The notes: generated by a model from the letters alone, not told the origin. Shown: positions 3,676 to 40,961, numbered from the stretch's first letter. The stretch: 42,769 nucleotides of DNA from a virus (IMGVR_UViG_3300042503_000853:1-42769), one strand, 5' to 3'. Program-made: numbers and translations.

Positions 3676-4289
3676 TATGACCACGCAGCATGTTGATAAC
3701 CGGGGCTATACCGAATGCGGCGGGAGGTGTTCTGCTTCAAGTCATCTCGCATGGTGTCAAGGATTGACTGGTATTCAGCCTGGTAGACCGCAGCACGTCC
3801 CTCGTCCTGGCGAACCATTGCTGCAAGGTACGAGGTGTAGGCCACAATTAGAGGGTGGTGCAAAGCTGGCATGAGCGGTGTCGAATAGTCGCTCAACAGT
3901 TCCGGTTCGCTCCGGTAGTAATACAAAGTCCCGTTTTGATCGGTTGTCGGAAGAGGGTTGAGCCGAGCCTTGTTGCCGATGATCGTCCAAGCAAAGGTAG
4001 CCGTCATACGGTCAGGGTCAAGGAAATCCTCAAGCTGGACCCACATCACCGGAAGATCGTTGATAACTAGCTGGCGGGCCCGTACGAAGTCGTTAGGGAC
4101 AGTAGCCGATCCGCCTACAAAAGTCATAGCCTGAGTGTCCAACAGCCAAGGCCATTCTTTGGTAGCTGAGATAGTAGCTAGGGAGCGGTTGATCAAAGAG
4201 TCAATCGTGGTGTCCGGAAGCAAGCCGTCGCCGGAAGCAGGGATTGCTAGGCGTTGCTTTACAGCCGTACGAATTTGACCACGGTTCAT
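3675..4289 (-). CDS. head-tail adaptor / tail tubular protein A-like
   Basis: The 204-aa product starts with a helical region (MNRGQIRTAVKQRLAIP...) and has the pattern seen in podovirus adaptor proteins: an early IDSLINRSL helix, an EWPWL motif near residue 47, then a VPNDFVRARQLVI strand and a central beta region. The C-terminal half is helical and includes a stretch resembling AYTSYLAAMV. Such proteins form a ring under the portal. It lies before the large beta-rich tail protein, which matches podovirus order. The family call is by motif impression and gene order. Confidence 0.68.
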   Translation of the reverse strand: MNRGQIRTAVKQRLAIPASGDGLLPDTTIDSLINRSLATISATKEWPWLLDTQAMTFVGGSATVPNDFVRARQLVINDLPVMWVQLEDFLDPDRMTATFAWTIIGNKARLNPLPTTDQNGTLYYYRSEPELLSDYSTPLMPALHHPLIVAYTSYLAAMVRQDEGRAAVYQAEYQSILDTMRDDLKQNTSRRIRYSPGYQHAAWS

Positions 4290-21945: not shown

Positions 21946-21980
21946 AAGCCCCGACAGGTGCGTGATACCTATCGGGGCTT
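21946..21980 (-). terminator. strong hairpin after the MoxR/VWA operon
   Basis: AAGCCCCGACAGG (21946-21958) pairs with CCTATCGGGGCTT (21968-21980), 13 bp with one G-T pair. It should end the operon that starts at 25060. Confidence 0.75.
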
Positions 21981-21984
21981 GCTA

Positions 21985-22009
21985 GTCGGGGGAAAGGGGG
22001 AACCCCGAC
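21985..22009 (-). terminator. second hairpin in tandem
   Basis: GTCGGGG (21985-21991) pairs with CCCCGAC (22003-22009), a perfect 7-bp stem directly before the 13-bp hairpin in the direction of transcription. The tandem pair makes a robust operon end. Confidence 0.55.
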
Positions 22010-22029: not shown

Positions 22030-22806
22030 TTAGTCGTCATCCTCACCTAACGAGATAATTCCTTCCTCTAGCCCACCAGCCAAGATACGAAGTAAGAAAG
22101 CAATCAGTTGCTTGCCACCCTGCATATCGTGCAACTCGGTGGCAGTTTTCAACATGCCTGCAAAAGACATATCTTCACCACTCGCCACACATTCACGGGC
22201 TACCTGCATAAACATGAAAGTGCTCATCAGTGCATCATCCACCGCACCGCAAGGTTGAGGAATAGTCCCCTCGCCGTCGTTTAGATACTGCTCAATCTGT
22301 TGAACCACCACCCCAGTTTTGTGAACGATCGAAACGTCAGCTGCAAGCCCGGTAGGCGTGATGACATTGACGATTCGACAAGGCACTTCGCCCTCTAACT
22401 CCTCTCTCACTCCGTCGTCCTCAAACTGTTTCGCCAGTTCTTCCTTCTGCCCTTCGGTCAGTTCTTCATACCGCAAACTTTCCCCTGTCTCGGGGTTCTT
22501 GTATGCGTGATGACCTGTCCCATGAGAGACGAGCAACACTGCACCGATACGGGTTGTTTCTTCTCCGAACCTGCCTGCCTTGTAGTCGGCTGACAACAAT
22601 GCCAGAGACTCGCGAAAAGTGCCCATCAGAGCCTGCTCGCCAACTTCTTCCGCACCGAACATGCGCCACTTGGGCACACCCTCGTTGATGGTGAGGACAT
22701 AACCCAATGAGTGAGACTCAGGGCTTGTACTGCGGTTCTTGTCGTAGCCGTAAGCGGTAAGCCAGTTGTCCATCACTTCTTGTGGGCGTAATTCTTTGAT
22801 ATCCAT
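22030..22806 (-). CDS. third protein of the MoxR/VWA operon, unknown function
   Basis: This 258-aa, acidic, mixed alpha/beta protein has a clear Shine-Dalgarno (AAAGGATTAAAA). It follows the VWA gene by three bases and ends before a tandem terminator, so it belongs to the same operon. A central strand region (RIGAVLLVSHGTGHH, then CRIVNVITPTGLAADVSIV) is flanked by helices, and the C-terminus is hydrophobic helix plus GEDDD. It could be a substrate, adaptor or inhibitor of the MoxR/VWA pair. I do not recognise a family. Confidence 0.75.
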   Translation of the reverse strand: MDIKELRPQEVMDNWLTAYGYDKNRSTSPESHSLGYVLTINEGVPKWRMFGAEEVGEQALMGTFRESLALLSADYKAGRFGEETTRIGAVLLVSHGTGHHAYKNPETGESLRYEELTEGQKEELAKQFEDDGVREELEGEVPCRIVNVITPTGLAADVSIVHKTGVVVQQIEQYLNDGEGTIPQPCGAVDDALMSTFMFMQVARECVASGEDMSFAGMLKTATELHDMQGGKQLIAFLLRILAGGLEEGIISLGEDDD

Positions 22807-22808
22807 TT

Positions 22809-24290
22809 TTAATCCTTTTCTTTTTCTAGGGCTCGCACCCAGTTGGTAATCAGTCGGCAGTATTTGTGTTTAGGCACTGCCCCTGTTCGTTTAATCGTGG
22901 CAAGCAGCTCGATCGCCTGGTCACAAGTGTCCACCCCGACAATGTTGTTACGAACCGATAAGTTCGCACACTCTCTGATGAGGTCGTCGTGCATGTCGTC
23001 GTTCTTGCCTGTTACTTGTCCGTCCGACACCCAAAGAATGAAATCCTTGTTTGACTTTCGTTGCCGAAGTGCCCACCGAAGTATCGGCCCATCTACGCCG
23101 TTACCGCAGTGCAGTGGCAACTCATTGAAGTCTGACTCTGTAATCATTCTCCCGTTCTTAGCGACCACCCAAGCATTAGGTGCGCCTGCGTTGTTGGTGC
23201 TGTTGGTGTACACAACAATCAAAGCCCCTGCGAATTGCTTCACAGTTTCCCGAACGGTCTCATGAGATACACCCATAGAACCCGAGCAGTCAAAGACAAC
23301 AACGCCACCACGAGCCCGAACTACCTCGCGAAAAATGCGGCGTTCCGGGTCAGTGAGCAAACGGTCAGGGCGTGACGGGTATTTGCCCGTCATGGCTGGT
23401 CTCTTTCTCTTTCCGATAAACGAACCAGTGTTTTCCGTGAGCGAGGTCATGCCGAAACGCAAGTGTTCCCACTGGCTTCCACTGTCTCGCCTTCTTCTTG
23501 CGTTGGTTCGCTTTAGTTCCTTTTCCAATTCGGCAGGTGGCTGTTGCATCCATCCTTCAATTTTGTTTGCCAATGGAAAGGTGCGGAGCATGAACCCTTC
23601 GGGAATGAGAACAGAGTGTTCTTCACTTTTCTCCACCCAACTGAACTTCAAAGGGTCGGTGCTAGTAAGTCGCCTGCGTGGAATTGACACAAATCTGCGA
23701 GTGTCAAACTTCCAACCAGTCGAATCCATCTCCTTCTCAATGAGTGCAAAGTTTTCCTTGAACATTGGATTCTTGACCAAGCGACGCTTAACAAGCTTGT
23801 GAACTTCGGTGTTGTAAGTGCCGAGAAACAAACTAAGAGCGTCGTTCCATGAGTTTCTTGCTACGCAACTATCTGCAAGCCCCTTCTCGGAACCGTCAGC
23901 CAAGTGAACAACATCACCAACAAGATCTCCAGTGCGAACATTTTTGACCCACTGGTTAGCAACGTGCCGGGCAACAAGGTTCACTCTCATCTCTTCGGCT
24001 ATGCGAATTGCGTTAGCACTCACTCCCAACTGGTCAATGAGAGCCTGCGGAACACTGGTCGGAGAAATGCGGGCATGAATCATCTCATGCGCCCGTACTG
24101 CCTTGGCTTGGTCACTGTCACCTTCGGGAAGTGCCATCTCGTGCGAACTGAAATCTGTGTAGGCGAGACCCCTCGCAAGAGGGGCAGGATTAACTACCCA
24201 CCCCTCTTGCAAACTCGGGTCAAGCCCAATGTCAGCCCTGTCAGCCACAACCCATTCAGGCGAGGCAATTCTTTTCGTGTAGTCGGTCAT
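22809..24290 (-). CDS. zincin-like metallopeptidase with C-terminal VWA domain (DUF2201-like)
   Basis: This 493-aa protein has an N-terminal HExxH motif (H68-E-M-I-H72) followed by IAEEMRVN (E99/E100 as a possible third ligand), the layout of a gluzincin active site. A basic linker (RRRR near 265-268) follows. The C-terminal VWA domain has the metal-binding DxSxS as D334-C-S-G-S338 and a SDGQ motif. The middle MIDAS Thr seems replaced (GNGVDGP). The combination resembles the DUF2201 putative metallopeptidase/VWA proteins that work with MoxR ATPases. The start overlaps the MoxR stop (TGATG). It probably needs the ATPase to load or open a metal site or a client. Confidence 0.87.
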   Translation of the reverse strand: MTDYTKRIASPEWVVADRADIGLDPSLQEGWVVNPAPLARGLAYTDFSSHEMALPEGDSDQAKAVRAHEMIHARISPTSVPQALIDQLGVSANAIRIAEEMRVNLVARHVANQWVKNVRTGDLVGDVVHLADGSEKGLADSCVARNSWNDALSLFLGTYNTEVHKLVKRRLVKNPMFKENFALIEKEMDSTGWKFDTRRFVSIPRRRLTSTDPLKFSWVEKSEEHSVLIPEGFMLRTFPLANKIEGWMQQPPAELEKELKRTNARRRRDSGSQWEHLRFGMTSLTENTGSFIGKRKRPAMTGKYPSRPDRLLTDPERRIFREVVRARGGVVVFDCSGSMGVSHETVRETVKQFAGALIVVYTNSTNNAGAPNAWVVAKNGRMITESDFNELPLHCGNGVDGPILRWALRQRKSNKDFILWVSDGQVTGKNDDMHDDLIRECANLSVRNNIVGVDTCDQAIELLATIKRTGAVPKHKYCRLITNWVRALEKEKD

Positions 24291-25060
24291 CAGTCCGCAA
24301 CCTTCATGCCAACGGTCAATTCCACTGCCCCTTCAGAGACGCCTTCCTTGCCCATGCTTTCCGACAAGGCAATCGCCGTAGAAATTGCAGGAGCCTCATC
24401 ACCAAAGACAAGACGTACAGCAGCAGCTCGATCCATCCGGCCAGAGAGTTTGTCAAAGGCAAAGAAGGAACGAAGGCTAAAGCGGTCACGCTCTCTGTTC
24501 GCATAAGCACGAGCAACGCCTTGCAGGTGAATCGGCAGGCAAGCGACTGCTTCAGGGTTCACTTCGTTGATGTTGATACGGACAGGGAATCTGTCCACCA
24601 AGTTGGCAGGCAAATCGGTCAATCGTTCGGCATTGGTGGTGGCAATAATCTCAAAGCCATCCTTAGGTGTCATGCGTTCACCAGTTTCGGGGTGTTCGCG
24701 AACAGCCGAGCCGTCACTGTCACAGATAAGCAACAAGGCGGTGAGCACATCTCCCGAGGCTTGGTCAAGTTCGTCAAGGATGAGGCGGTCTCCACCTTGC
24801 CATGCCCGAAGGGCTGAACCTGTCACAAACTTCCACTCGTCCTTGCTCGGCTTCCACAATCCGTCCACATCTGCGGTGGTCATGTCAGGGGAGCAAAGAA
24901 CACGGTACGACTTGCGAGTGCGGTCAAAGTATTCAAGGTGCTTAGTCAATGCAAAATGCGTTTTGCCTGTTCCTGGCTGTCCATAAAGCAGAACACGATC
25001 GGTTCCAGCTTGCAGCGCAAGGTTCAAGTCATTCCAGCATTGTGAGGATGTTGTAGTCAT
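24290..25060 (-). CDS. MoxR-type AAA+ ATPase
   Basis: This 256-aa protein has Walker A GQPGTGKT (27-34), Walker B LILDELD (D96, E97), sensor 1 IIATTN (138-143) and a DRF arginine-finger region (R157). The MTTADVDGLW segment after the first strand fits the MoxR/AAA_5 family. MoxR ATPases act as chaperone-like remodelers together with VWA proteins, and here the VWA gene is directly coupled. The first gene of its operon, it is driven by a near-consensus promoter at 25132-25104. Its short length is typical of phage versions, lacking a long lid domain. Confidence 0.9.
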   Translation of the reverse strand: MTTTSSQCWNDLNLALQAGTDRVLLYGQPGTGKTHFALTKHLEYFDRTRKSYRVLCSPDMTTADVDGLWKPSKDEWKFVTGSALRAWQGGDRLILDELDQASGDVLTALLLICDSDGSAVREHPETGERMTPKDGFEIIATTNAERLTDLPANLVDRFPVRININEVNPEAVACLPIHLQGVARAYANRERDRFSLRSFFAFDKLSGRMDRAAAVRLVFGDEAPAISTAIALSESMGKEGVSEGAVELTVGMKVAD

Positions 25061-25118: not shown

Positions 25119-25132
25119 CGTAACCATGTCAA
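25104..25132 (-). promoter_or_regulatory. near-consensus promoter of the MoxR/VWA operon
   Basis: TTGACA (25132-25127), a 17-base spacer and CATAAT (25109-25104) on the minus strand differ from the consensus by one base. The -35 overlaps the start codon of the plus-strand gene at 25126. Confidence 0.8.
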
Positions 25133-25419
25133 GTATTTCCGACCTAGAACTTTTAATAGAACAACTAAACGAAGTTGCCCCACCGCCTAAAGCTCCGTTG
25201 GGCGTGAACCAAATCATAAAAGACAGTGGCGAGTGGCGACTGGTCAAAGTCGGTGCAGGGCTGTACGCAGTCAGAGGTATCTATCGCAACGCCCGTGGCG
25301 AAGAAGTTGAGTGTCGCCAAGAAAACGAAATAGTCGGGTTCGCACCTGCCGTCACCACCGCCGTCCGTTTTACCTTGTCAATCCTGTCCAGCTCACGTCA
25401 CTATTGGATCACCGTCTAA
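25126..25419 (+). CDS. 97-aa protein of unknown function (plus strand)
   Basis: The product begins MSSISDLELLIEQLNEVAPP with an acidic helix, a Pro-rich turn and a beta-rich core (GEWRLVKVGAGLYAVRGIYR, then GEEVECRQENEIVG). The start has no ribosome binding site but lies right at the predicted transcription start. It is divergent from the MoxR operon and may regulate it, since one inverted repeat serves both promoters. No known family; one of only two plus-strand genes. Confidence 0.7.
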   Translation: MSSISDLELLIEQLNEVAPPPKAPLGVNQIIKDSGEWRLVKVGAGLYAVRGIYRNARGEEVECRQENEIVGFAPAVTTAVRFTLSILSSSRHYWITV

Positions 25420-25874: not shown

Positions 25875-26756
25875 CTACTTTTTAGAGTTGATAGCCATCT
25901 TGACTTCTTTGTAAAGCTTTTCGCTGTGGGCTAACTCGTAAGCACTGATCGGTTCTTCAACACCGATCTTTTTGGCAGCAACTTTTGCAATCGCTTTCAC
26001 ATATGGCCACCCGCCCCATGATTCAACCTGTCGCAAACGAAACTCAAAAGGTGGGCTGGTGTTCTCAACCGGACTGGTTGGAATCACTTTGTCCACAATG
26101 TCAGCAAGCTCTATGAACTCAGCCTTCTCTCCGACTTTCTTTTTCTTTGGTACTGGTTCTTCTACAATCTCCGCATCAACAATTTCGATTTCTTCGGCAG
26201 CGGGCTGTTCAACCTTTGCTGTTTCAGCAATTGTTGTTTCGGGGAAATACTCAACACCTTCAATGCTTGACACTTCTTCGGGCGTGTACGACAAGCCAGC
26301 GATAATGTCGGGGAACACGATACGACACAACTCACTCGTTGCACGGGCAAGAAGCATGGCACGTGGGTATGTCTTCCAGTTGTTCTTGTTGGCAAGACCA
26401 GCCATCTTGGCATCTTCCATTGTCCAGCGCACTGTGGCCGTACTGCCAGTATCTGCTCTGATTCCCTTGACTTCGCAAACTGTGTTGCTGTTTTCAACTA
26501 CATCAATACGGTGTCCATGACGAGCAACCATCGCTCTCATCAGTTCAGGGGACATTGCGGTGCGTCCCTCAATGACATGGATACTGTTCAGCGCCTGCAT
26601 TGGCCCCAGGCCAAGCTCTGCTCCGTACATAATGCAAGCCAAAACTGACTCGTTTTTACCACGTAACGCGGTAGGTACAAAAACTGTGTTGCTAACGCGC
26701 TGGCTTAGCTTCCACATTGTTTCGTAATCGTGTTGGACAATTGCTATTTCACTCAT
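25875..26756 (-). CDS. RecT-family single-strand annealing protein
   Basis: This 293-aa protein anneals complementary ssDNA in phage recombination and probably in replication by recombination. It has the RecT core: FVPTALRGKNESVLACIMYG, GLGPMQALNSIHVIEGRTAM, a Trp-containing strand (TVRWTMEDAKMAGL) and the WKTYPRAMLLARATSELCR then FPDIIAGLSYTPEE block. The C-terminal 90 residues are acidic and low-complexity, then helical. A Shine-Dalgarno (AAAGGAAACACC) precedes the ATG. No partner exonuclease is recognised in this window. Confidence 0.9.
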   Translation of the reverse strand: MSEIAIVQHDYETMWKLSQRVSNTVFVPTALRGKNESVLACIMYGAELGLGPMQALNSIHVIEGRTAMSPELMRAMVARHGHRIDVVENSNTVCEVKGIRADTGSTATVRWTMEDAKMAGLANKNNWKTYPRAMLLARATSELCRIVFPDIIAGLSYTPEEVSSIEGVEYFPETTIAETAKVEQPAAEEIEIVDAEIVEEPVPKKKKVGEKAEFIELADIVDKVIPTSPVENTSPPFEFRLRQVESWGGWPYVKAIAKVAAKKIGVEEPISAYELAHSEKLYKEVKMAINSKK

Positions 26757-27887: not shown

Positions 27888-28496
27888 TTAAAGAGAATTT
27901 GTGTGATTGATTACATCATCAAAAGGTGGATCATCTTCAATGTTTTCTACATACCAATACTGTGTATTAGTAATGTATGAGGGTCTCTCGGGTTCAAACT
28001 CTACAAACGACGAATCGAAAACCAACATCCTGTTTCCAGGGAAAGCTCCAAGCGCACCGCACTCAAGCTGCACGAAGTTAAAGTGCTTGTGTTGATCCGG
28101 ACACATAGCAAAGTGGTCATCGTAAGGCGCAGCAGTGAAAATGTATCTGCCAATCTCCCACTGGCCCTTCATGTAGACCTTGACAGGCATTTCTTTCAAT
28201 GCGTCATACTCGTGCGTTACGAAATCCCACCCATAACAAGACCATATTTGCAAGTGGTCTAATGGGTGGTTGTGTGAGGTCTTGGGGTCAAATGTAATTG
28301 CATGAACTGGAACGTGTTGAACCATGGCACCGTTGTTAAGCAACAGGGATAGACCCCAGGCTCGCCCTGGCAAAGAAGAAAGCCCGTACACCATGCAGGG
28401 AGTGAACTCCCCATAACCCTTCTGCATGTCGTAAAGAAACTCATTACGAACGTAACAGTAAAAAGGCTTAGGGATATCTGCTATGTGTGTGGACAT
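27888..28496 (-). CDS. conserved hypothetical phage protein
   Basis: The 202-aa protein starts at ATG 28496, which overlaps the stop of the cysteine-rich gene (TAATG). It is rich in aromatics and His (YCYVRNEFLYDMQKGYGEF, HFAMCPDQHKHFNF, TQYWYVENIEDDPPFDDV). The clustered His and acidic residues could bind metal. No family is known to me. Confidence 0.72.
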   Translation of the reverse strand: MSTHIADIPKPFYCYVRNEFLYDMQKGYGEFTPCMVYGLSSLPGRAWGLSLLLNNGAMVQHVPVHAITFDPKTSHNHPLDHLQIWSCYGWDFVTHEYDALKEMPVKVYMKGQWEIGRYIFTAAPYDDHFAMCPDQHKHFNFVQLECGALGAFPGNRMLVFDSSFVEFEPERPSYITNTQYWYVENIEDDPPFDDVINHTNSL

Positions 28497-28654
28497 TATT
28501 TCTTCTTCTTGCGCCGATTCTTTTTCTGTTCGGCTAGCTCTTCTTGACCCTTGCGTGACTTCCACCGATGGCATAAGCATTCACAGTTGTCATGAACGTA
28601 CTGAGGCCAAATAGTGATAGCACGATCGACCTCTCCACAGTGGTCGCAGGCCAT
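28496..28654 (-). CDS. 52-aa cysteine-rich basic protein, zinc-finger-like
   Basis: A short frame with TAATG overlaps on both sides encodes MACDHCGEVDRAITIWPQYV..., with C3-x2-C6 and C24-x-C26-x-C28-H29, enough for one zinc site. A Lys/Arg-rich tail (KKNRRKKKK) follows. The overlaps on both ends make the reading secure. It resembles small phage HNH-like or zinc-knuckle proteins without a catalytic motif. Confidence 0.68.
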   Translation of the reverse strand: MACDHCGEVDRAITIWPQYVHDNCECLCHRWKSRKGQEELAEQKKNRRKKKK

Positions 28655-32706: not shown

Positions 32707-33078
32707 TTAAATACCTTCGGGGATTATGAGCAGTTCCAATCCTGCCTCTTTAGATAATACAGGAGCGTGAAAGGTAATGGTAGGGACGTATCCAGGGGCA
32801 TCGTCGTCAACTACACCAGCGTCTACCAGTCCATCAATAGCTGCCTTGGCTGTGGGGTAGCAGGCTCCGGTGTCCTGGAACTTGCGGTCAGGCAGGATAG
32901 GCGTCACTTCGATACGGATAGACCGGAAATGGGGGATCCCCGCCTCAAGAGCAGCGTCTCGGAATGCTTCCCTCCACCACTTGGTAATGGCAGCCCGCTG
33001 ATAGTGGGAACCCTTCTTACGCTCCTGGTTGGTTGTCCAGGGGCGCTGGCCCTTCACTATCACGCTGTACTGTTCCAT
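32707..33078 (-). CDS. RusA-like Holliday-junction resolvase
   Basis: This 123-aa protein has the RusA layout: a KGQRPWTTNQERKKGSHYQ start, then RSIRIEVTPILPDRKFQDTG, AIDGLVDAGVVDDDAPGYV and a final strand. The acidic residues of the DxxxxxxxxxxxxDxLxxxGxxxDDxxx pattern fit the metal site. RusA enzymes cut four-way junctions at recombination or packaging. Its TAATG link to the 2627-aa gene and place among virion genes are unusual for a DNA enzyme. Confidence 0.72.
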   Translation of the reverse strand: MEQYSVIVKGQRPWTTNQERKKGSHYQRAAITKWWREAFRDAALEAGIPHFRSIRIEVTPILPDRKFQDTGACYPTAKAAIDGLVDAGVVDDDAPGYVPTITFHAPVLSKEAGLELLIIPEGI

Positions 33079-36000
33079 TACGGAATCGTATCGCCGGTCT
33101 CAATGGCCCTGCGGCGCTTGAGGGTTTCAATAGTACGCAGACGGTCACGAGCACTACGCATCACATCTTCAATTTGGTCATCTGCCTGGTACGGAATACC
33201 TGGAAGAGAGAACAGGCGTCCGGCAGCTGCCAACCTGCCACCGTACTTAACATTGGGCTGACGAGTGCGTGGGTTGAGACGAACTTCGCCAGTGTCGTAA
33301 CGAGCAACCGGACCAAGAGCAATACGGGTACCTGGAATGCGTGACCCAGGTGCAACGTTCATGGCACGGTTGACAATTGGGAACTGCTGTGCAGTAAATC
33401 CAAGCAATTCACGTGGGCGAGTAAAAGGAAGAAGTGGCGGTGAAATTTCTGATCCGCTGAGTGTGTACGCACCACTTCCCGACGGCCTAGAAATCGGCTG
33501 GAAGCCTTTGGCAATATTTCTTCCAGTCAGCACCGCAGCACCAATACGTGGTACGGGGCCAAGGGTGTTAAGCGCTGGCCTAACATCCTCGTCGGCAAGG
33601 ACTGAACCAATTGGACCACCGAAAACGTCACCAAACGGGTTGAGAATGTTTGTTGAGAACGCTCCACCAAACCATGTTGGGTTGCCATACCGCAAGCCCA
33701 TGGGGTCTTCGTCGGGATCATAAACAAGGGTTCCCATGTAAATGTACCAGCGAAGAGACTGCGGGCTGTCGGAACCAAGCATCATGAACACTTTATGGAT
33801 GTGCTTTGTCCATGCGTAGAAAGGAATGAACGGGGTCACATACTTTCGTTCGCTCATCGAAAGGTCAGCAAAGTCACCCAAGAAGTCGTTTGCAGTGTCT
33901 GCAGCTTCAAGAACAATCTTACGCAATTCCGGATCGTTCTTCCAAGAACCGTCAGCAGCAACGGTGTCAAGGTCAACACCCTTAGCCTTCAATTTGGTAT
34001 CAAGAACTTCAAGGAAATAGGCGTGACGCTGAATACGGTTAATTGTTTCGTTGATCTTGAACGAAGTGTTGATTACGCCTCGGCCACGAACGGCTTCCGG
34101 GTATTGCTTTCCTGTCAAACGAGTCAGCAATGGAGGAAGTGCGTTTCCTTCCGGAATGTTGTACAAGTACCGGCGGTCAGCCAAAGAGGCGCTAATGTCC
34201 TGAATTGGTGATTCTTTAGCAATTCGAATCTTGGGGGTAGGGGTTGGCAATTCTGAAGTTGCATCTACAAGGGTACGTAGACCAGGCCCGTACTCTTCAG
34301 CCTTGACTTCCTTCATGCGACGAATCATGTCCACCACATTGACACCGCTCATTTGAGCAATAATCATGTTGGAGAAAAGGTCACCAAGCTGCCAAGCCAC
34401 AGACAGCACAAGGGTCGATGTTTTGAATTGACTTGTTACCTTGTGGGCACCACGAAGAAATCCGTTCCATGAAGCTGGGTCAATGACAGCCTCAACCTTT
34501 GCAATAGCTTCAGAGAAACCTGTAGGAACGAACATGGTCTCATGAGTAACACGAGCAATCGGCATACGTGAAGTAATTTTGCTGTACGGATCAATAGCTT
34601 TAAATCCACGGTTCGCCATCTCAATAACAACAAGACGACCGTATTCTTCTTTAAGGGCAGCGTTAAAAGCAGCCTTTGGATTAGGCACACCGGAAGAAAA
34701 TGCTGCTGTTCCGCCTTCAGCTTCTGCAATGTCCGCACCAACACGAACTACGGATTGGTTGAGATCGTCTTCACTCATGCGTGAGACTTTTTGGTAAGCC
34801 TTTTCGTAAAGAGAGCGTGACAAATCCTCACCAAGTACTTCAATACCTGTATTGCCAAACTGTGCAACAAGCATACGGTACGATTCGTTGGAGCTCATGC
34901 GGCCCACGTCTTTACCTAGTCGTGCAGCAACGCCACGAATAGAGAAGATTGTTTGGCGATCACCGTCTCGATAGTGTTCGCTTGTCAGGATTTCAAATCC
35001 GGAAAGACCAGCTCGCTGGAGGTCCATTGCCAAGCCACCCGTAAAGACTGCAGGGCGGCCAGTAGGTACATACATTGGCCCCTGGAACTGGAAATCCTCA
35101 CCGTCAGGAAGTCCTACAGCAAATTGTTCTGACGGGTAGCCACCTTCCATTGCAACTCGCAACGGGGCAGCTCCGCCCATAGACTGAATGTCGGCAAGAG
35201 TTTGAGAAGATTCCAGGCGGTTCTCAATGATCTTGAGCTTACGAGCTTTCTTCTTTTTATCTTTAATTTTTTCACGCAAAGCAGATTGAGCAGCAGCGTT
35301 CTTTGCTAAAGCAAGACGAGCTTTGGTGCCGGTCTTTTGAAGCTGGATCAGCCTTTCCGCTTCTCCACGATACTTTTCCGACTGAACAATAAACTCTTCA
35401 AAAGCTGCCAGGCGTTCAGTTGCTCGCTGGGCAGCACGCATCTTCTTTGTTGCGTCCTTAGCCATTGCGTTAATAACGTCAGCTTCGTAGGCGGCGCGAC
35501 GAACGGTCGGATCAGATATCTTGCGTTCCGGCACTACGTCGGTTGGCTTGTCGGCAATAACACGCAGAGATGGGATCTCGTTATCACCAAGGATTTCCCG
35601 AGCACGATTGACAACCGTTACAAGGTCATTGTCAACACCCTCTTCGTTGATCAAGCGGTCAAGGTAATCCTGTGCCTGCTGAAGTTCAAGGTTCTCGTCA
35701 ATTGCGGCAAGAGGGTCAAAGTTCTTGCTCTTGCTTTCTTTAAGCGCCTTCTTGGCACGTTCGTATTCACGCACGGTTTCAAGGAATTGCTGGCCCCATT
35801 CGTCAGGTGTGAGACCGTAAGGGTCAGCTAGCTGGTCAATGTTGTCTGCAACACGAATAAGCTTTGGACCCTTGGCTGCAGTGCTGCGTTCGGTAGTTGA
35901 ACGAAAATATGTACGGGCAAGACGACGGCGTTCACGTGGGTCAAGCTTGTCCCACCATTCCCATTCGGCAGTACCGGAACGTACATTGACATAGAAGGTT

Positions 36001-39000
36001 ACGGAATCATTGGCACGGTCCCACTTGCCTCCAATACCTTCAAGAACACCGGCGTAGGTACGAACTTCTTCTTGCGCCTTAGCCTGTGCGTCTTTGCGGT
36101 ATGTCTCAACGTCTTCAGGTGTTGGGTTACGCATTGACTCAATGTCACGCTCCAACATGGCACGTTCTTCAACCTGGGCCTTAAAGTTTGCATAAAGCGC
36201 AGGATCCTGGGCAACACTGTTAGCAAGCTGCTCAAGCTCAGGGTCAATGAGGGAAGCACCCTCTGCAACAGCTTCTGCTTTTTGTGCAGCTGTTTCCTTA
36301 CGAAGATTGGACAAACGACCCTTTTGCTCACCAATACCTTTCGTTCCGGCAAAATACTGTTCGACGGTAAGTCTTTGAGGATTGACACCAAGAGAACCGG
36401 CTACACCATTTTCAAAAAGCTTGTTGTAGTTTTTAGGGAGAAGAGAAAGAACACTGCCGTTTTCAATTCCTTGATCGCGCAGCTGACGAGAAATTGTTGC
36501 AGCATCAACGGAACCAGGGTCACCTAGTTTTTTGTCGTATGGCTCAATAACGTCATCAAGACGAAGAAGGCCGTACTCAGCACTGATGATGTAAATGCGG
36601 TCGTCGTCAAACATTTCACGAGCAGTAGCCAGTGCGTCTTTAAACATTGACCCTTGGTACATCTCGGCAGCTGTGGTTGCAACCGGCCCCTTAGCAGCAC
36701 CGCACGGAATGATTACATAGTCGGCACGTGTGTTCTTTGCTCCTGGCGCTTTTGTCTGTTCAAGAACGTCATCAACTTTTGCAAGGCGCTTTGGACCATT
36801 GGGGTTCTCAATAACAGAAAGAAAATATTCAACATCAGAAAGAAGTGAGAGATCACGTTCTCGTTGATACGGGTTTCCATATTTTTTGGATGTTTCAACT
36901 TTTAGTTTTTCTATTTCTTTTCTTATTAAATCAACGACTTCACTTTTCAGCGTTTCGTTTAATTTATTAAATTCGTCAATAGCAATTTGATTTTGTGATA
37001 TTCCTTCTTTAATATCAAAATCGTCTTCCAATACGCTGGAAATACTTTGTATTGCCAAAGCTGCTTCTTCTTGCCCTGGAAAATCTTCTTCATCCCAAAA
37101 CCGATCACCAATTCTTTGCCAATCATCAATCGGAACAACATTGTCACGTACGCCAGGAAATTTTAAATCACGCCGAACAAGTTCAGTACCAATATATGTA
37201 ACGTCTTCACCATCTTTAATACGAGCTTGAACCTTGTCAATTGCTGCACGTAAATTGGCAATGTCTTTTAAAGCAGCCGCTTTTGAAGAAGATTTTGCTT
37301 TTGTAAGTCCTTCAACTCTTACATCCCAACCTTTTATCGCCCTGCCTGATCTAAAAGATACATCTTGAGCACCAAGGTCTTGCCTAATTGCATTTTCGAG
37401 AACATCAATAGCTTGAACAACTGTTTCAATTGGAGTGTCGGGGGAAAACTTTAAAGACGGTATAACCCCCGTTACGGGGATTGATGGAAGAGTAATCTCT
37501 ACAGAATCGCCGTTGACTTGATCCCTTTTTGTTCTGACACCCGGAATGCCAGCACTACCCCAGGCAATCTGAGTGGCGGTTGTGTTGGCCTCAAAATGGT
37601 TTTCAATTCTGTTTAATTCTTGAAGCGCCAACTTTAAATAATCGTACGACTTTCTTGAAAATTTACGTAAAGGATGCGTTGCGCCGTTTTCATCTGCTGG
37701 AATAGTTTCACGACTCATTCCTCGTGTCATCTCTGAATACAGTTCAGCCGGAACATAGTCAGGAGGGTTAAGGATTAACTGTATCTTTGCTTCTTTTGTT
37801 GTGGCGGCACGAACTTCTTTAATATACCGGGCAATAATATTTGCCGTTGTAGCCAGCTGATGAACGGTGCCAAACTTGGATGAAACTACCCGTTGGGGGA
37901 ATACGGAAGTATCTGCAGTGTCGTCAATAATTGATTGAATTACTTCATCAATTGCAGAACCTTTTTTCATAATAATAACGTTTGGATCATTCCAATTTGT
38001 TATCAGGCCAAGGTCAAGGCTTCCTACATCGTTGCGTAGCTTGTTAAGTTTGTTAAAAATGGTTGTGCGTGGTTCGCCACCTCGTACGACTCCGCCTTTT
38101 GTCAATGGTGCAGTACCAGCAATAACCCGTTGGTTTGTTTCGTCACCAAGAACCTTGACGATGGCCTCCCCAACAGCCTGTTCCATTGTCATGCCTTCAG
38201 GTGTTTCGTAGAAGGCTTTGTTTAGCTCCTGGGTAACGTCGTTGATAACGTCACCAAGCTGCTCCATGCGGAGATCAGCAACCCGCAACTCTGCAGGCGT
38301 CTGAGCATTCTCCATAAATTCGTTAGCGTCGTTCCAGGCGGATTCAATTGCGGTAACAAAGTTAGGAATAACAGCCTGCAAGCTGCTGCCTTCCAATCCT
38401 TCAAGCGCTTGTTGGGCTACAGCCTTGAGCTGTTCTATGTATGCGTCACCACGTTCCGGAGTAACTGGGAATACTTCTTTAGGATCAACTTCAACTTTAA
38501 GCGTGTCGAGATCTCCGCCTGCCCGTTCAAAAGCCATCTCGCCGTCGTACAGTTCGTCATCCGCAAGAACAATTGCATCGGTAAGGTTACTAATTGCTGA
38601 CTCGTCGGCCTGGCGAGCAATCTCGTTAATATTCCTTGCTGCGTCAACAGCCTGACGAGCAGACGCAGCTGCTGCTTGGGCGTTAGCAAGTTCTTGCTGC
38701 AATACGGCAAGCTCTGCGTCCACTGCGTTTTCGGGAAGAGAAGCCCTTTTCTTACCAATTACCTTCTGAAGTTCTTCAAGCCTTGCGGTGGTTTCGGCAA
38801 GTTTAGCCGCCTGCTTTACTACAGGGCTCTTAGCAATGATTTCCCGAACCTCAGAAACCGGAATACGATATTTCTTAGCAATTGCTTTTTCGTTCATGCC
38901 AGCAAGGTGTGCGTCAACAACGTCGTACTTGCGAACTTGTTGCTGTAGCTTTACATGCTTTTCTTCAAGCAATGCAATCTTGTCGGTGATCTTGAGAATT

Positions 39001-40961
39001 TCATCACCAAGCTTCTTGAGCTTTCCTTTTGTTTTCCCTAAAAGGTTTTCCGCAGCGTTTAGACGGCCCCGTGATGGCGGCATGTCAAATTGCTCAGGGC
39101 GGTCTGCAACTTCTGCATCCGGGTCAGGATTTTTAAACGGGTCCCATGGACCTTTTGGTGCGCGAGGACGACCATCTCGTGGCGGAAGAGGTTCACCCAA
39201 TGCTGCGCCAGTTGCCTCCTGGTTAAAGGAGCGGCGAACGCGACGATAGAACTCAATGTTTTCTCGCATTGACGCTGGGTACATGGAGGGGTCAAGAGCA
39301 AGCTCATCAGGCAACGCTTCAACAATCGCCATAAGAAACTGTTGGCGTACTGGGTCGTTAGCCGGAAGTTCAAAGATTCCGTTTTCTTCTGCTTCTGCAA
39401 ATAAGTCAATAAGGGCTTTGTTCTTTGATTTTGCAACAGCGACTTTAAGACGATTGACAAAAGGCAGAGGAATTAAGTAGTCAGTAGAAAGAGCACTGCG
39501 ACGGCCAACGCCATCTACTGATTTTTGTGCAACTTCAACAAGAGCTTTCATCAAGCCTTCAACAGCAGAAGACAAGCGTTGGTATTGTTCGGGAGAAAGA
39601 TTTCCGTTTACAAAGTCAATTGATAAACGAGCGCCTGATCCCGAAAGGTGGTATTCCGGAGTAGCGTCATAGCGGCCAAGCTCGGCAATTTCTTCAGGTG
39701 TCTTGTTAAGGTTTTCAACAAGGTATTTTACAAGAGCAGCACGGCCGTTGATAACAGCAATGATTGCTTCGTTTTCTATTTGACTAAGTTCACCCCAGGC
39801 TTCGCCGGTGGCGGGATTGACAACATCTTTAAACTCAGGGTTTTTCTGAATGTTAAGAAGTGTTTGTTTTACTAGCTCTGCTTCAAACTCCGAGTTGCGT
39901 ACCGCTTGACGGATTTTTGCTTTTGTAGCATGGGTAAGGGATATGGCAATGTTTCTTGCCGCTTTTTTACGAAGCAACTGAAGGTCAGGATGATTGTCCG
40001 GCATCTCCGGATTGGCTTTACGAAGATCATCAATTTGCTGAATGTAGGATTTGGCTGCGCGTGCGCCCCAGCCGGTAGAAAGTTGTTCTACATACAAACC
40101 TTCTCGATAGGCTTTGCCGAGACCTTTGCCTGCCCACACGTAAGGCTTAAAAGGAAAGTTTGCTGCTTTGTCTACGTAGTCAATAGCATGGCCCGTACGG
40201 GAAGCAGTGCGATCAGCCCATCCGGAAATCTTTGCCATGCGTTCAGATTTTGCAGTATATAAAGCAGCCCTTTCTGCAGCGGCAGCAGCATCTGCCATCG
40301 CCCCTCTTGTAGCCGAAGCAGCGGCCGAACGGGAAGCGACAGAAGCGGCAGCAGCAGATTCAGCAGCAGAAGCGCCGGTAGCTTTTGAAATTGAAGATGC
40401 GCCTCTTGCGGCACCACGGCCTATAAATGAAATGTTGCCAAGGTCTTCAATAAGCATTCCGGAGATAGGTCCTCCAGCTTGCCATTGCTCTGCGTAGTCG
40501 GGAACACGATTCCAAAACTGAAGAGTATTACCGACGCTAGTTGCAAATTGACGTGTTGTTGAGTTTGGATCGCTGTATGGTCTTTCGTCTTGCCAAATAA
40601 ATGGCGTAGATTGCTTTACAAGATCAATCCCGAGGCCGCCAAAAAAACGAATAGCGCCGGATGGAACGTTGCGTACAACGTTTGCAACTTCACGAGTTTC
40701 TGTTTGGAATCTAGATTTTCCTGCAACGGGACTTAATGAAGATGAGCTAGCTGGTGATTTTCTTCCGATGTAGGGAAGACCGTTCCATAATTTAAGCTCA
40801 ACATTTGTAACGTCGTCTGCAAAATTGTCAAACCAACTATTGCCGTCTCCCCCGCCAGTGCTAGGCGTAGGCGAACCAGGCCTGGGAATAGGAGGAAGCG
40901 GCGGAAGCTTTGGCTTATTTGCTACGGGTTGAAGTTTGCGAGGCTGTGCTGGGATAACCAT
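33078..40961 (-). CDS. giant multidomain internal virion/ejection protein
   Basis: This 2627-aa protein takes about 18% of the genome. It starts with a Pro-rich segment (PKLPPLPPIPRPG) and helical repeats. Near 690-710 is an HTH-like segment (EKAIAKKYRIPVSEVREI). Around C1420 is a DUF6884-like domain: CGAAK, MYQGSMFKDAL, IISAEYGLL and IEPYDKKL (Y1435, S1460, G1464, P1474-Y-D). Hydrophobic stretches follow at 2179-2206 (TLVLSVAWQLGDLF) and near 2375-2393. Bases 36850-38000 (residues about 990-1370) are AT-rich. It has no polymerase or protease motif I can see. Ejection or cell-entry with a carried enzymatic domain is the best guess. Confidence 0.8.
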   Translation of the reverse strand: MVIPAQPRKLQPVANKPKLPPLPPIPRPGSPTPSTGGGDGNSWFDNFADDVTNVELKLWNGLPYIGRKSPASSSSLSPVAGKSRFQTETREVANVVRNVPSGAIRFFGGLGIDLVKQSTPFIWQDERPYSDPNSTTRQFATSVGNTLQFWNRVPDYAEQWQAGGPISGMLIEDLGNISFIGRGAARGASSISKATGASAAESAAAASVASRSAAASATRGAMADAAAAAERAALYTAKSERMAKISGWADRTASRTGHAIDYVDKAANFPFKPYVWAGKGLGKAYREGLYVEQLSTGWGARAAKSYIQQIDDLRKANPEMPDNHPDLQLLRKKAARNIAISLTHATKAKIRQAVRNSEFEAELVKQTLLNIQKNPEFKDVVNPATGEAWGELSQIENEAIIAVINGRAALVKYLVENLNKTPEEIAELGRYDATPEYHLSGSGARLSIDFVNGNLSPEQYQRLSSAVEGLMKALVEVAQKSVDGVGRRSALSTDYLIPLPFVNRLKVAVAKSKNKALIDLFAEAEENGIFELPANDPVRQQFLMAIVEALPDELALDPSMYPASMRENIEFYRRVRRSFNQEATGAALGEPLPPRDGRPRAPKGPWDPFKNPDPDAEVADRPEQFDMPPSRGRLNAAENLLGKTKGKLKKLGDEILKITDKIALLEEKHVKLQQQVRKYDVVDAHLAGMNEKAIAKKYRIPVSEVREIIAKSPVVKQAAKLAETTARLEELQKVIGKKRASLPENAVDAELAVLQQELANAQAAAASARQAVDAARNINEIARQADESAISNLTDAIVLADDELYDGEMAFERAGGDLDTLKVEVDPKEVFPVTPERGDAYIEQLKAVAQQALEGLEGSSLQAVIPNFVTAIESAWNDANEFMENAQTPAELRVADLRMEQLGDVINDVTQELNKAFYETPEGMTMEQAVGEAIVKVLGDETNQRVIAGTAPLTKGGVVRGGEPRTTIFNKLNKLRNDVGSLDLGLITNWNDPNVIIMKKGSAIDEVIQSIIDDTADTSVFPQRVVSSKFGTVHQLATTANIIARYIKEVRAATTKEAKIQLILNPPDYVPAELYSEMTRGMSRETIPADENGATHPLRKFSRKSYDYLKLALQELNRIENHFEANTTATQIAWGSAGIPGVRTKRDQVNGDSVEITLPSIPVTGVIPSLKFSPDTPIETVVQAIDVLENAIRQDLGAQDVSFRSGRAIKGWDVRVEGLTKAKSSSKAAALKDIANLRAAIDKVQARIKDGEDVTYIGTELVRRDLKFPGVRDNVVPIDDWQRIGDRFWDEEDFPGQEEAALAIQSISSVLEDDFDIKEGISQNQIAIDEFNKLNETLKSEVVDLIRKEIEKLKVETSKKYGNPYQRERDLSLLSDVEYFLSVIENPNGPKRLAKVDDVLEQTKAPGAKNTRADYVIIPCGAAKGPVATTAAEMYQGSMFKDALATAREMFDDDRIYIISAEYGLLRLDDVIEPYDKKLGDPGSVDAATISRQLRDQGIENGSVLSLLPKNYNKLFENGVAGSLGVNPQRLTVEQYFAGTKGIGEQKGRLSNLRKETAAQKAEAVAEGASLIDPELEQLANSVAQDPALYANFKAQVEERAMLERDIESMRNPTPEDVETYRKDAQAKAQEEVRTYAGVLEGIGGKWDRANDSVTFYVNVRSGTAEWEWWDKLDPRERRRLARTYFRSTTERSTAAKGPKLIRVADNIDQLADPYGLTPDEWGQQFLETVREYERAKKALKESKSKNFDPLAAIDENLELQQAQDYLDRLINEEGVDNDLVTVVNRAREILGDNEIPSLRVIADKPTDVVPERKISDPTVRRAAYEADVINAMAKDATKKMRAAQRATERLAAFEEFIVQSEKYRGEAERLIQLQKTGTKARLALAKNAAAQSALREKIKDKKKKARKLKIIENRLESSQTLADIQSMGGAAPLRVAMEGGYPSEQFAVGLPDGEDFQFQGPMYVPTGRPAVFTGGLAMDLQRAGLSGFEILTSEHYRDGDRQTIFSIRGVAARLGKDVGRMSSNESYRMLVAQFGNTGIEVLGEDLSRSLYEKAYQKVSRMSEDDLNQSVVRVGADIAEAEGGTAAFSSGVPNPKAAFNAALKEEYGRLVVIEMANRGFKAIDPYSKITSRMPIARVTHETMFVPTGFSEAIAKVEAVIDPASWNGFLRGAHKVTSQFKTSTLVLSVAWQLGDLFSNMIIAQMSGVNVVDMIRRMKEVKAEEYGPGLRTLVDATSELPTPTPKIRIAKESPIQDISASLADRRYLYNIPEGNALPPLLTRLTGKQYPEAVRGRGVINTSFKINETINRIQRHAYFLEVLDTKLKAKGVDLDTVAADGSWKNDPELRKIVLEAADTANDFLGDFADLSMSERKYVTPFIPFYAWTKHIHKVFMMLGSDSPQSLRWYIYMGTLVYDPDEDPMGLRYGNPTWFGGAFSTNILNPFGDVFGGPIGSVLADEDVRPALNTLGPVPRIGAAVLTGRNIAKGFQPISRPSGSGAYTLSGSEISPPLLPFTRPRELLGFTAQQFPIVNRAMNVAPGSRIPGTRIALGPVARYDTGEVRLNPRTRQPNVKYGGRLAAAGRLFSLPGIPYQADDQIEDVMRSARDRLRTIETLKRRRAIETGDTIP

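Follow-up and report, generated by a model that had tools for sequence, protein, structure and literature searches.

The window, as the DNA analysed here is called, is a 42,769-base virus record from IMG/VR. It comes from fresh water and encodes terminase, portal and major head proteins as well as a WhiB regulator, so it is a tailed phage with, most likely, an actinobacterial host. Three closely packed genes occupy its minus strand between positions 22030 and 25060, and all three ORFs named in an initial annotation of the sequence were confirmed. The genes, the accompanying signals and the conserved upstream neighbour are as follows:

24290-25060, minus strand: MoxR/CobS-type AAA+ ATPase, 256 aa, with matches to PF07728 (AAA_5) and phrog_16448
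22809-24290, minus strand: zincin-VWA protein, 493 aa, based on phrog_33218, a family alignment and an AlphaFold2 model
22030-22806, minus strand: third protein, 258 aa, without a match in the family libraries and aligned within its close subfamily
25132-25104, minus strand: sigma-70-like promoter candidate TTGACA-17-CATAAT, matching at 11 of 12 positions
21946-22009, minus strand: strong tandem hairpins 3′ of the third gene, from a fold of the sequence
25875-26756, minus strand: RecT-type annealing protein (PF03837, 4.7e-7; phrog_561, 1.2e-41), upstream of the operon and a conserved neighbour in the close subfamily

The ATPase and zincin-VWA genes have one base in common at their junction (TGATG), and a gap of 2 bases separates the zincin-VWA gene from the third gene. 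The candidate promoter lies 43 bases 5′ of the ATPase start codon. Its near-consensus character, as initially annotated, holds for the match itself, but promoter-like sites in the region (3) are not more numerous than in shuffled sequences (2.5). Likewise, the strong hairpins at the operon end are present, but the T-run required by the terminator scan was not found there. A perfect actinobacterial SOS box was not found in the window sequence.

Three further ORFs of the record may be mentioned. A small plus-strand ORF (25126-25419) is divergent from the operon and overlaps, with its start codon, the -35 hexamer of the promoter candidate. A 230-aa protein (27888-28580) matches phrog_3704, labelled ferredoxin, with 1.6e-40 and is kept across the phage group on either side of RecT, depending on the phage. 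About one fifth of the record is taken up by a minus-strand ORF of 2627 aa (33078-40961).

The first gene encodes a MoxR-type AAA+ ATPase

The ATPase matches the AAA_5 family PF07728 with 7e-17 (62 bits against a cut-off of 22) and phrog_16448 with 2.4e-31. It carries a Walker A motif (GQPGTGKT), a Walker B motif (LILDELD), a sensor (TTN) and an arginine-finger region (DRFPVR); these motifs are conserved in the alignment of relatives. The AAA_5 domain together with these motifs confirms the initial assignment to the MoxR-type AAA+ proteins, and in the PDB the ATPase profile matched Midasin and NorQ. Membership in the bpMoxR/VMAP ternary conflict system is not indicated: the bpMoxR profile scored 14.7 bits against a cut-off of 27, and a Pfam search of genes 2 and 3 returned no match to VMAP or to a beta-propeller partner.

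The second gene combines a gluzincin-like motif pattern with a VWA domain

The 493-aa protein matches phrog_33218, a family of unknown function, with 1.6e-39. No Pfam family was found for it at E <= 1, including CobT families PF06213 and PF11775. DUF2201, which consists of a metallopeptidase plus a VWA domain, was considered as a candidate identity and rejected, as a Pfam match at E <= 1 was not found. Searches of NCBIfam, PADLOC and Pfam gave no specific match for either gene 2 or gene 3. Relatives with 27-97% identity were collected by scans of a viral collection, and 18 sequences were aligned. The motifs of interest in the window protein are encoded at these positions:

24075-24089, minus strand: H68-E-M-I-H72, the HExxH motif of the putative zinc site, within predicted helix 60-75
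23979-23996, minus strand: E99-E-M-R-V-N104, containing the Glu that may be the third zinc ligand, 26 residues beyond H72
23277-23291, minus strand: D334-C-S-G-S338, the VWA MIDAS motif, conserved in the alignment

HExxH, EExRxN and DxSGS are invariant in all 18 relatives, with H68, E69, H72, E99, E100, R102, N104, D334, S336, G337 and S338 among the invariant residues and a spacing of 25-28 residues between HExxH and EExRxN. Invariance down to 27% identity argues that these motifs are not due to chance. Judged from the sequence, HExxH followed by a Glu in the next helix is the gluzincin pattern, and the protein carries a putative zinc site of this type. Both the HExxH at H68-H72 and the DCSGS site of the initial annotation were thus found at the residues given there.

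An AlphaFold2 model based on the 18-sequence alignment (mean pLDDT 82.5) predicts a gluzincin-like domain at the N-terminus and a VWA domain at the C-terminus. Three strands are followed by HExxH in helix 60-75 and by EExRxN in the next long helix (92-117), which is the gluzincin order. Structure search, proposed earlier as a check, bore out the VWA half, which matched VWA structures with Z 8.6 to 8.0, in line with the invariant DxSGS. The match to the VWA domain of NorD in the NorQ-NorD complex (Z 8.5, 142 residues, rmsd 3.4) was tied with several other VWA domains. For the zincin part Foldseek gave no significant match; as VWA chains dominated the list from the whole-model search, this half was barely probed. 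Two zincins, jannalysin (4jix) and profragilysin, are among the weak, non-significant matches. The AAA_5 match, the motifs and their conservation together support the earlier view that the phage encodes a MoxR/VWA pair whose peptidase site looks intact.

The third protein is restricted to close relatives

The 258-aa protein matched nothing in Pfam, PHROGs, PADLOC or NCBIfam. Its AlphaFold2 model reaches a pLDDT of 80.9, and the PDB fold search proposed for it gave nothing clear, the best matches being weak (Z 4 or less). Portal-protein matches from Foldseek were discounted for an rmsd near 20, and a relationship to a degenerate ATPase was dropped as chance (BLAST E 0.03 to 0.1).

The gene occurs only in the close subfamily of the window. 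It is absent beside the pair in L018, in the distant viral clade and in all 19 actinobacterial genome loci. The unit is therefore the pair, and the third protein is an addition, so the search for the same gene order in relatives speaks against the triad initially taken as the functional core. A universal role as adaptor or substrate, as suggested for this protein, is unlikely for the same reason, and we regard it as a lineage-specific accessory factor that may serve the window phage group.

The third protein evolves fast, with 38% identity to its counterpart in the related phage L013 compared with 82% for the ATPase and 93% for RecT. The genes 3′ of the cassette diverge in L013 as well, so a recombination breakpoint would explain the difference equally well. 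As a separate observation, genes 5′ of the ATPase are 92-99% identical between L013 and the window and those from the zincin-VWA gene onward 34-53%, which marks a sharp mosaic border at the ATPase.

Similar pairs in phages and plasmids

When genes 2 and 3 were searched by tblastn in 50,697 phage records, no credible match appeared. More distant counterparts were compared by motif and profile. In Gordonia phage Sixama, gp117, gp116 and gp115 comprise an AAA-ATPase and two further proteins, of 263 aa and of 696 aa; the latter has HETGH, EELRCE and DCSGS motifs. This resembles the window; the gene order differs, the third proteins are unrelated by profile, and gp115 matched the window family with an E of only 0.049 in hhalign. 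The third protein of the window is also unrelated to cyanophage gp151, to a small cyanophage DNA-binding protein, and to the 302-aa protein and DUF3150 protein of an IncC plasmid, as well as to Sixama gp116.

In T4-like cyanophages, CobS stands beside a ‘peptidase’ with HEVGH...EDARIE and DWSGSM, and the ‘CobT’ of an Ochrobactrum phage has HESAH. Elements of about 100-117 kb from Acinetobacter, Aeromonas, Methylobacterium, E. coli, Klebsiella and Providencia, which apparently are phage-plasmids, show this pairing as well, and so does an IncC plasmid. Two of the proteins, that of IncC and one from Acinetobacter, score above the Pfam threshold for CobT (PF06213). Phage CobS/CobT pairs (phrog_249 and phrog_459) share with the window an AAA+ ATPase next to a protein with HExxH, a downstream E(D/E)xR and a DxSGS VWA site. 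In contrast to these proteins of about 700 aa, the window protein has 493 aa, and the ATPase gene lies upstream of its partner, as it does, directly, in every complete locus examined. The window type is an actinobacteriophage-specific subfamily.

Profile comparisons of the N-terminal domain joined the cyanophage set to the plasmid set (E 3.9e-14) and the plasmid set to cobaltochelatase CobT (E 8.6e-7). The window family scored 28.0 against the joint mobile-element CobT-like set, compared with at most 16.9 in 100 column shuffles. With 18 actinobacterial-genome sequences added, it scored 32.9 (E 2e-4) against the cyanophage set, where a second null of 26 unrelated HExxH-containing ORFs gave at most 17.9, and 16.8, within the null, against the plasmid set alone. 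The direct comparison of the window N-domain with cobaltochelatase CobT (16.1) also falls within the null. For the VWA domain, the window family matched plasmid CobT with an E of 6.9e-7. Weak but consistent profile matches, at E about 2e-4 to 1e-3 for the N-terminus, thus suggest a link between the window pair and the mobile-element CobS/CobT pairs.

Genes of DNA metabolism surround both the window-type pairs and the phage CobS/CobT pairs (the latter annotated in cyanophages as porphyrin-biosynthesis protein plus peptidase). In the window subfamily the operon comes after RecT and other conserved genes, and in one relative (L028) a RecE-like exonuclease gene lies just 5′ of the ATPase. The IncC plasmid has the order ATPase, 302-aa protein, ssb, bet, exonuclease, DUF3150 and VWA-zincin (L061:6812-14657); the DUF3150 protein could be a further part of this machinery. 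In cyanophages and the Ochrobactrum phage, gp46/47-type nuclease genes come before the pair and clamp genes after it, and dnaE follows the pair in the phage-plasmid-like elements. Some distant copies lie near ArdC-type anti-restriction and methyltransferase genes.

Copies in actinobacterial chromosomes

A search of 395 genomes from one actinobacterial class detected the family in 21, twice only in pieces. HExxH is present in all of the 19 loci inspected and EExR in at least 18, the pattern used leaving one unresolved. In 16 of the 19 the pair lies directly upstream of a series of nrdR, PIG-L and PolIV genes, mostly with a LysM (yneA-like) gene in between. Paired perfect actinobacterial SOS boxes (GAACnnnnGTTC) occur just 3′ of the zincin-VWA gene in 17 loci. 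In six, lexA is divergent from the ATPase gene, with a perfect box of this kind between the two or at the lexA start. The cluster of lexA, yneA-like LysM, nrdR, PIG-L and PolIV genes that hosts the pair, with paired SOS boxes before the LysM gene, can be seen in L045:3487-9359 and L092-L109; perfect boxes of L045 are at 4138, 6340 and 6364.

In the tree, the 17 SOS-cluster copies form one clade with full support, which indicates one ancient placement and not 17 independent ones; the other two copies, which lie outside the cluster, branch with viral sequences. No SOS box was found 5′ of the ATPase in cellular loci without an adjacent lexA, so the pair itself may escape SOS control there, and such control of the pair is only suggested.

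HExxH in mobile-element CobT-like proteins and cobaltochelatase CobT

Cobaltochelatase CobS/CobT (PDB 9uka; PF06213, PF11775) shares with the window pair the AAA+ plus VWA architecture and a Glu-x-Ala-Arg motif in the CobT N-domain. Six CobT proteins were taken from cellular cobST loci of Sinorhizobium, Rhizobium, Methylobacterium, Pandoraea, Sphingomonas and Cereibacter (L072-L077), of which four are annotated as cobT, one as ‘cobalt chelatase’ and one carries no annotation. Unlike the window protein, all six lack HExxH, having GDSMALR or similar where mobile-element proteins have LDHEVAH; the ExAR motif is retained. HExxH is kept in 13 of 14 mobile-element CobT-like proteins, the exception being an Acinetobacter plasmid protein with QEVAK, so cleavage is perhaps not essential everywhere. 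The N-domain of cobaltochelatase CobT resembles a peptidase domain that has lost HExxH and retained the ExAR helix motif.

Clusters of cobST have been described in tailed viruses whose hosts belong to 8 orders, in a study that considers it a mistake to annotate cyanophage cobT as a peptidase (PMC8651126). In view of the conserved catalytic residues, the peptidase label of phage CobT deserves a second hearing.

Proposed function and alternatives

We tentatively favour an ATP-driven, VWA-guided metallopeptidase or remodeller that acts on proteins of DNA repair, recombination or replication and is not a cobaltochelatase, although this falls somewhat short of an even chance. In known MoxR-VWA systems the VWA protein attaches to the AAA+ ring and delivers a client (PMC7159879). 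From the genes, motifs, conservation, adjacency and neighbourhoods observed, we infer zinc binding, docking, cleavage, a substrate class and a role of the third protein as follows. Genes 1 and 2 would form a two-component machine of a MoxR/CobS-type AAA+ ring and a VWA/gluzincin-like partner. By analogy with other MoxR-VWA pairs, docking of the VWA domain on the ring would bring in a bound protein, which ATP hydrolysis by the ring would remodel. The HExxH...E site might then cut the client, or the action of the ring might activate the partner by exposing the zincin site. Given the recurring DNA-transaction neighbours, which by themselves do not prove the function of the pair, the likeliest clients would be proteins of recombination, replication or DNA damage, for example ones stuck on DNA, or a repair regulator. 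In the window phage group only, the third protein could be an adaptor, or a guard or inhibitor against self-cleavage.

The pair might instead be a non-cutting chaperone or assembly factor of the NorQ-NorD, RavA-ViaA or CoxD-CoxE type, with a zincin fold that serves for metal or peptide binding only. NorQ-NorD, which acts on nitric oxide reductase, likewise consists of a MoxR ATPase and a VWA partner; it differs in that a plasmid NorD-like protein lacked HExxH in the motif scan. The VWA domain in common with NorD, the best-ranked MoxR-system structural match, and the ATPase profile matches to Midasin and NorQ fit such a role, as does the existence of a plasmid homologue and a CobT branch without HExxH. 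Against it stands the observation that His, Glu and His, with the catalytic Glu69 among them, never change over a range of 27-97% identity, which would not be expected of a purely structural metal site. We consider this alternative unlikely.

Still less probable is a cobaltochelatase helper, in which phage CobS/CobT homologues would lend ATPase subunits to host CobN and so boost cobalamin, a role that has been suggested for archaeal tailed viruses and for cyanophages. The report of viral cobST clusters and its rejection of the peptidase label (PMC8651126) speak for this, together with the homology chain from the window VWA to plasmid CobT and from the plasmid N-domain to cobaltochelatase CobT. 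However, HExxH is lost in the six cellular CobT proteins and kept in nearly all mobile-element and in all window-type relatives, and it is not evident what a conserved peptidase site would contribute to chelation; moreover, the neighbours are DNA genes and not cofactor genes, and the window protein has no CobT Pfam match.

A protease that attacks a host protein in defence, counter-defence or host takeover, the third protein serving as its adaptor or as an immunity factor, would agree with the faster divergence of the zincin-VWA and third genes than of the ATPase and RecT among close phages and with the ArdC-type and methyltransferase genes near some distant copies, but the defence role raised in the initial annotation is very unlikely: PADLOC gave generic AAA or P-loop matches and no specific defence profile, relatives have recombination, replication and SOS genes as neighbours, with the chromosomal copies in a conserved SOS cluster, and a breakpoint accounts equally well for the divergence.

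Beyond the window, the metallopeptidase reading could be extended to the phage and plasmid ‘CobST’ pairs in general, including the cyanophage core gene cobS. These would then be AAA+-driven VWA metallopeptidases of DNA repair, recombination or replication and not B12 genes, with a chromosomal version kept in the SOS cluster of actinobacteria and cobaltochelatase CobT as a derived, peptidase-dead offshoot; we hold this wider view to be possible but rather doubtful. In viromes, phage cobS and cobT are often read as auxiliary metabolic genes for vitamin B12. Such readings would be wrong if phage CobS/CobT were ATP-driven proteases of DNA transactions, and the puzzle of T4-like cyanophage cobS beside gp46/47 and clamp genes would become testable.

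Both phage CobST pairs and MoxR-VWA pairs are already known. In the open-licence literature searched, where absence is no proof, we found the intact zincin site and DNA-damage context of the pair undescribed: nothing was found that ties phage CobT to HExxH or combines cobS, phage and MoxR, a report of the SOS-cluster version was not found, and PMC9503650 holds no prior description of the ATPase/zincin-VWA system. The short proteins of actinobacteria and actinophages are the smallest versions found in this analysis and thus offer practical subjects for structural and biochemical work.
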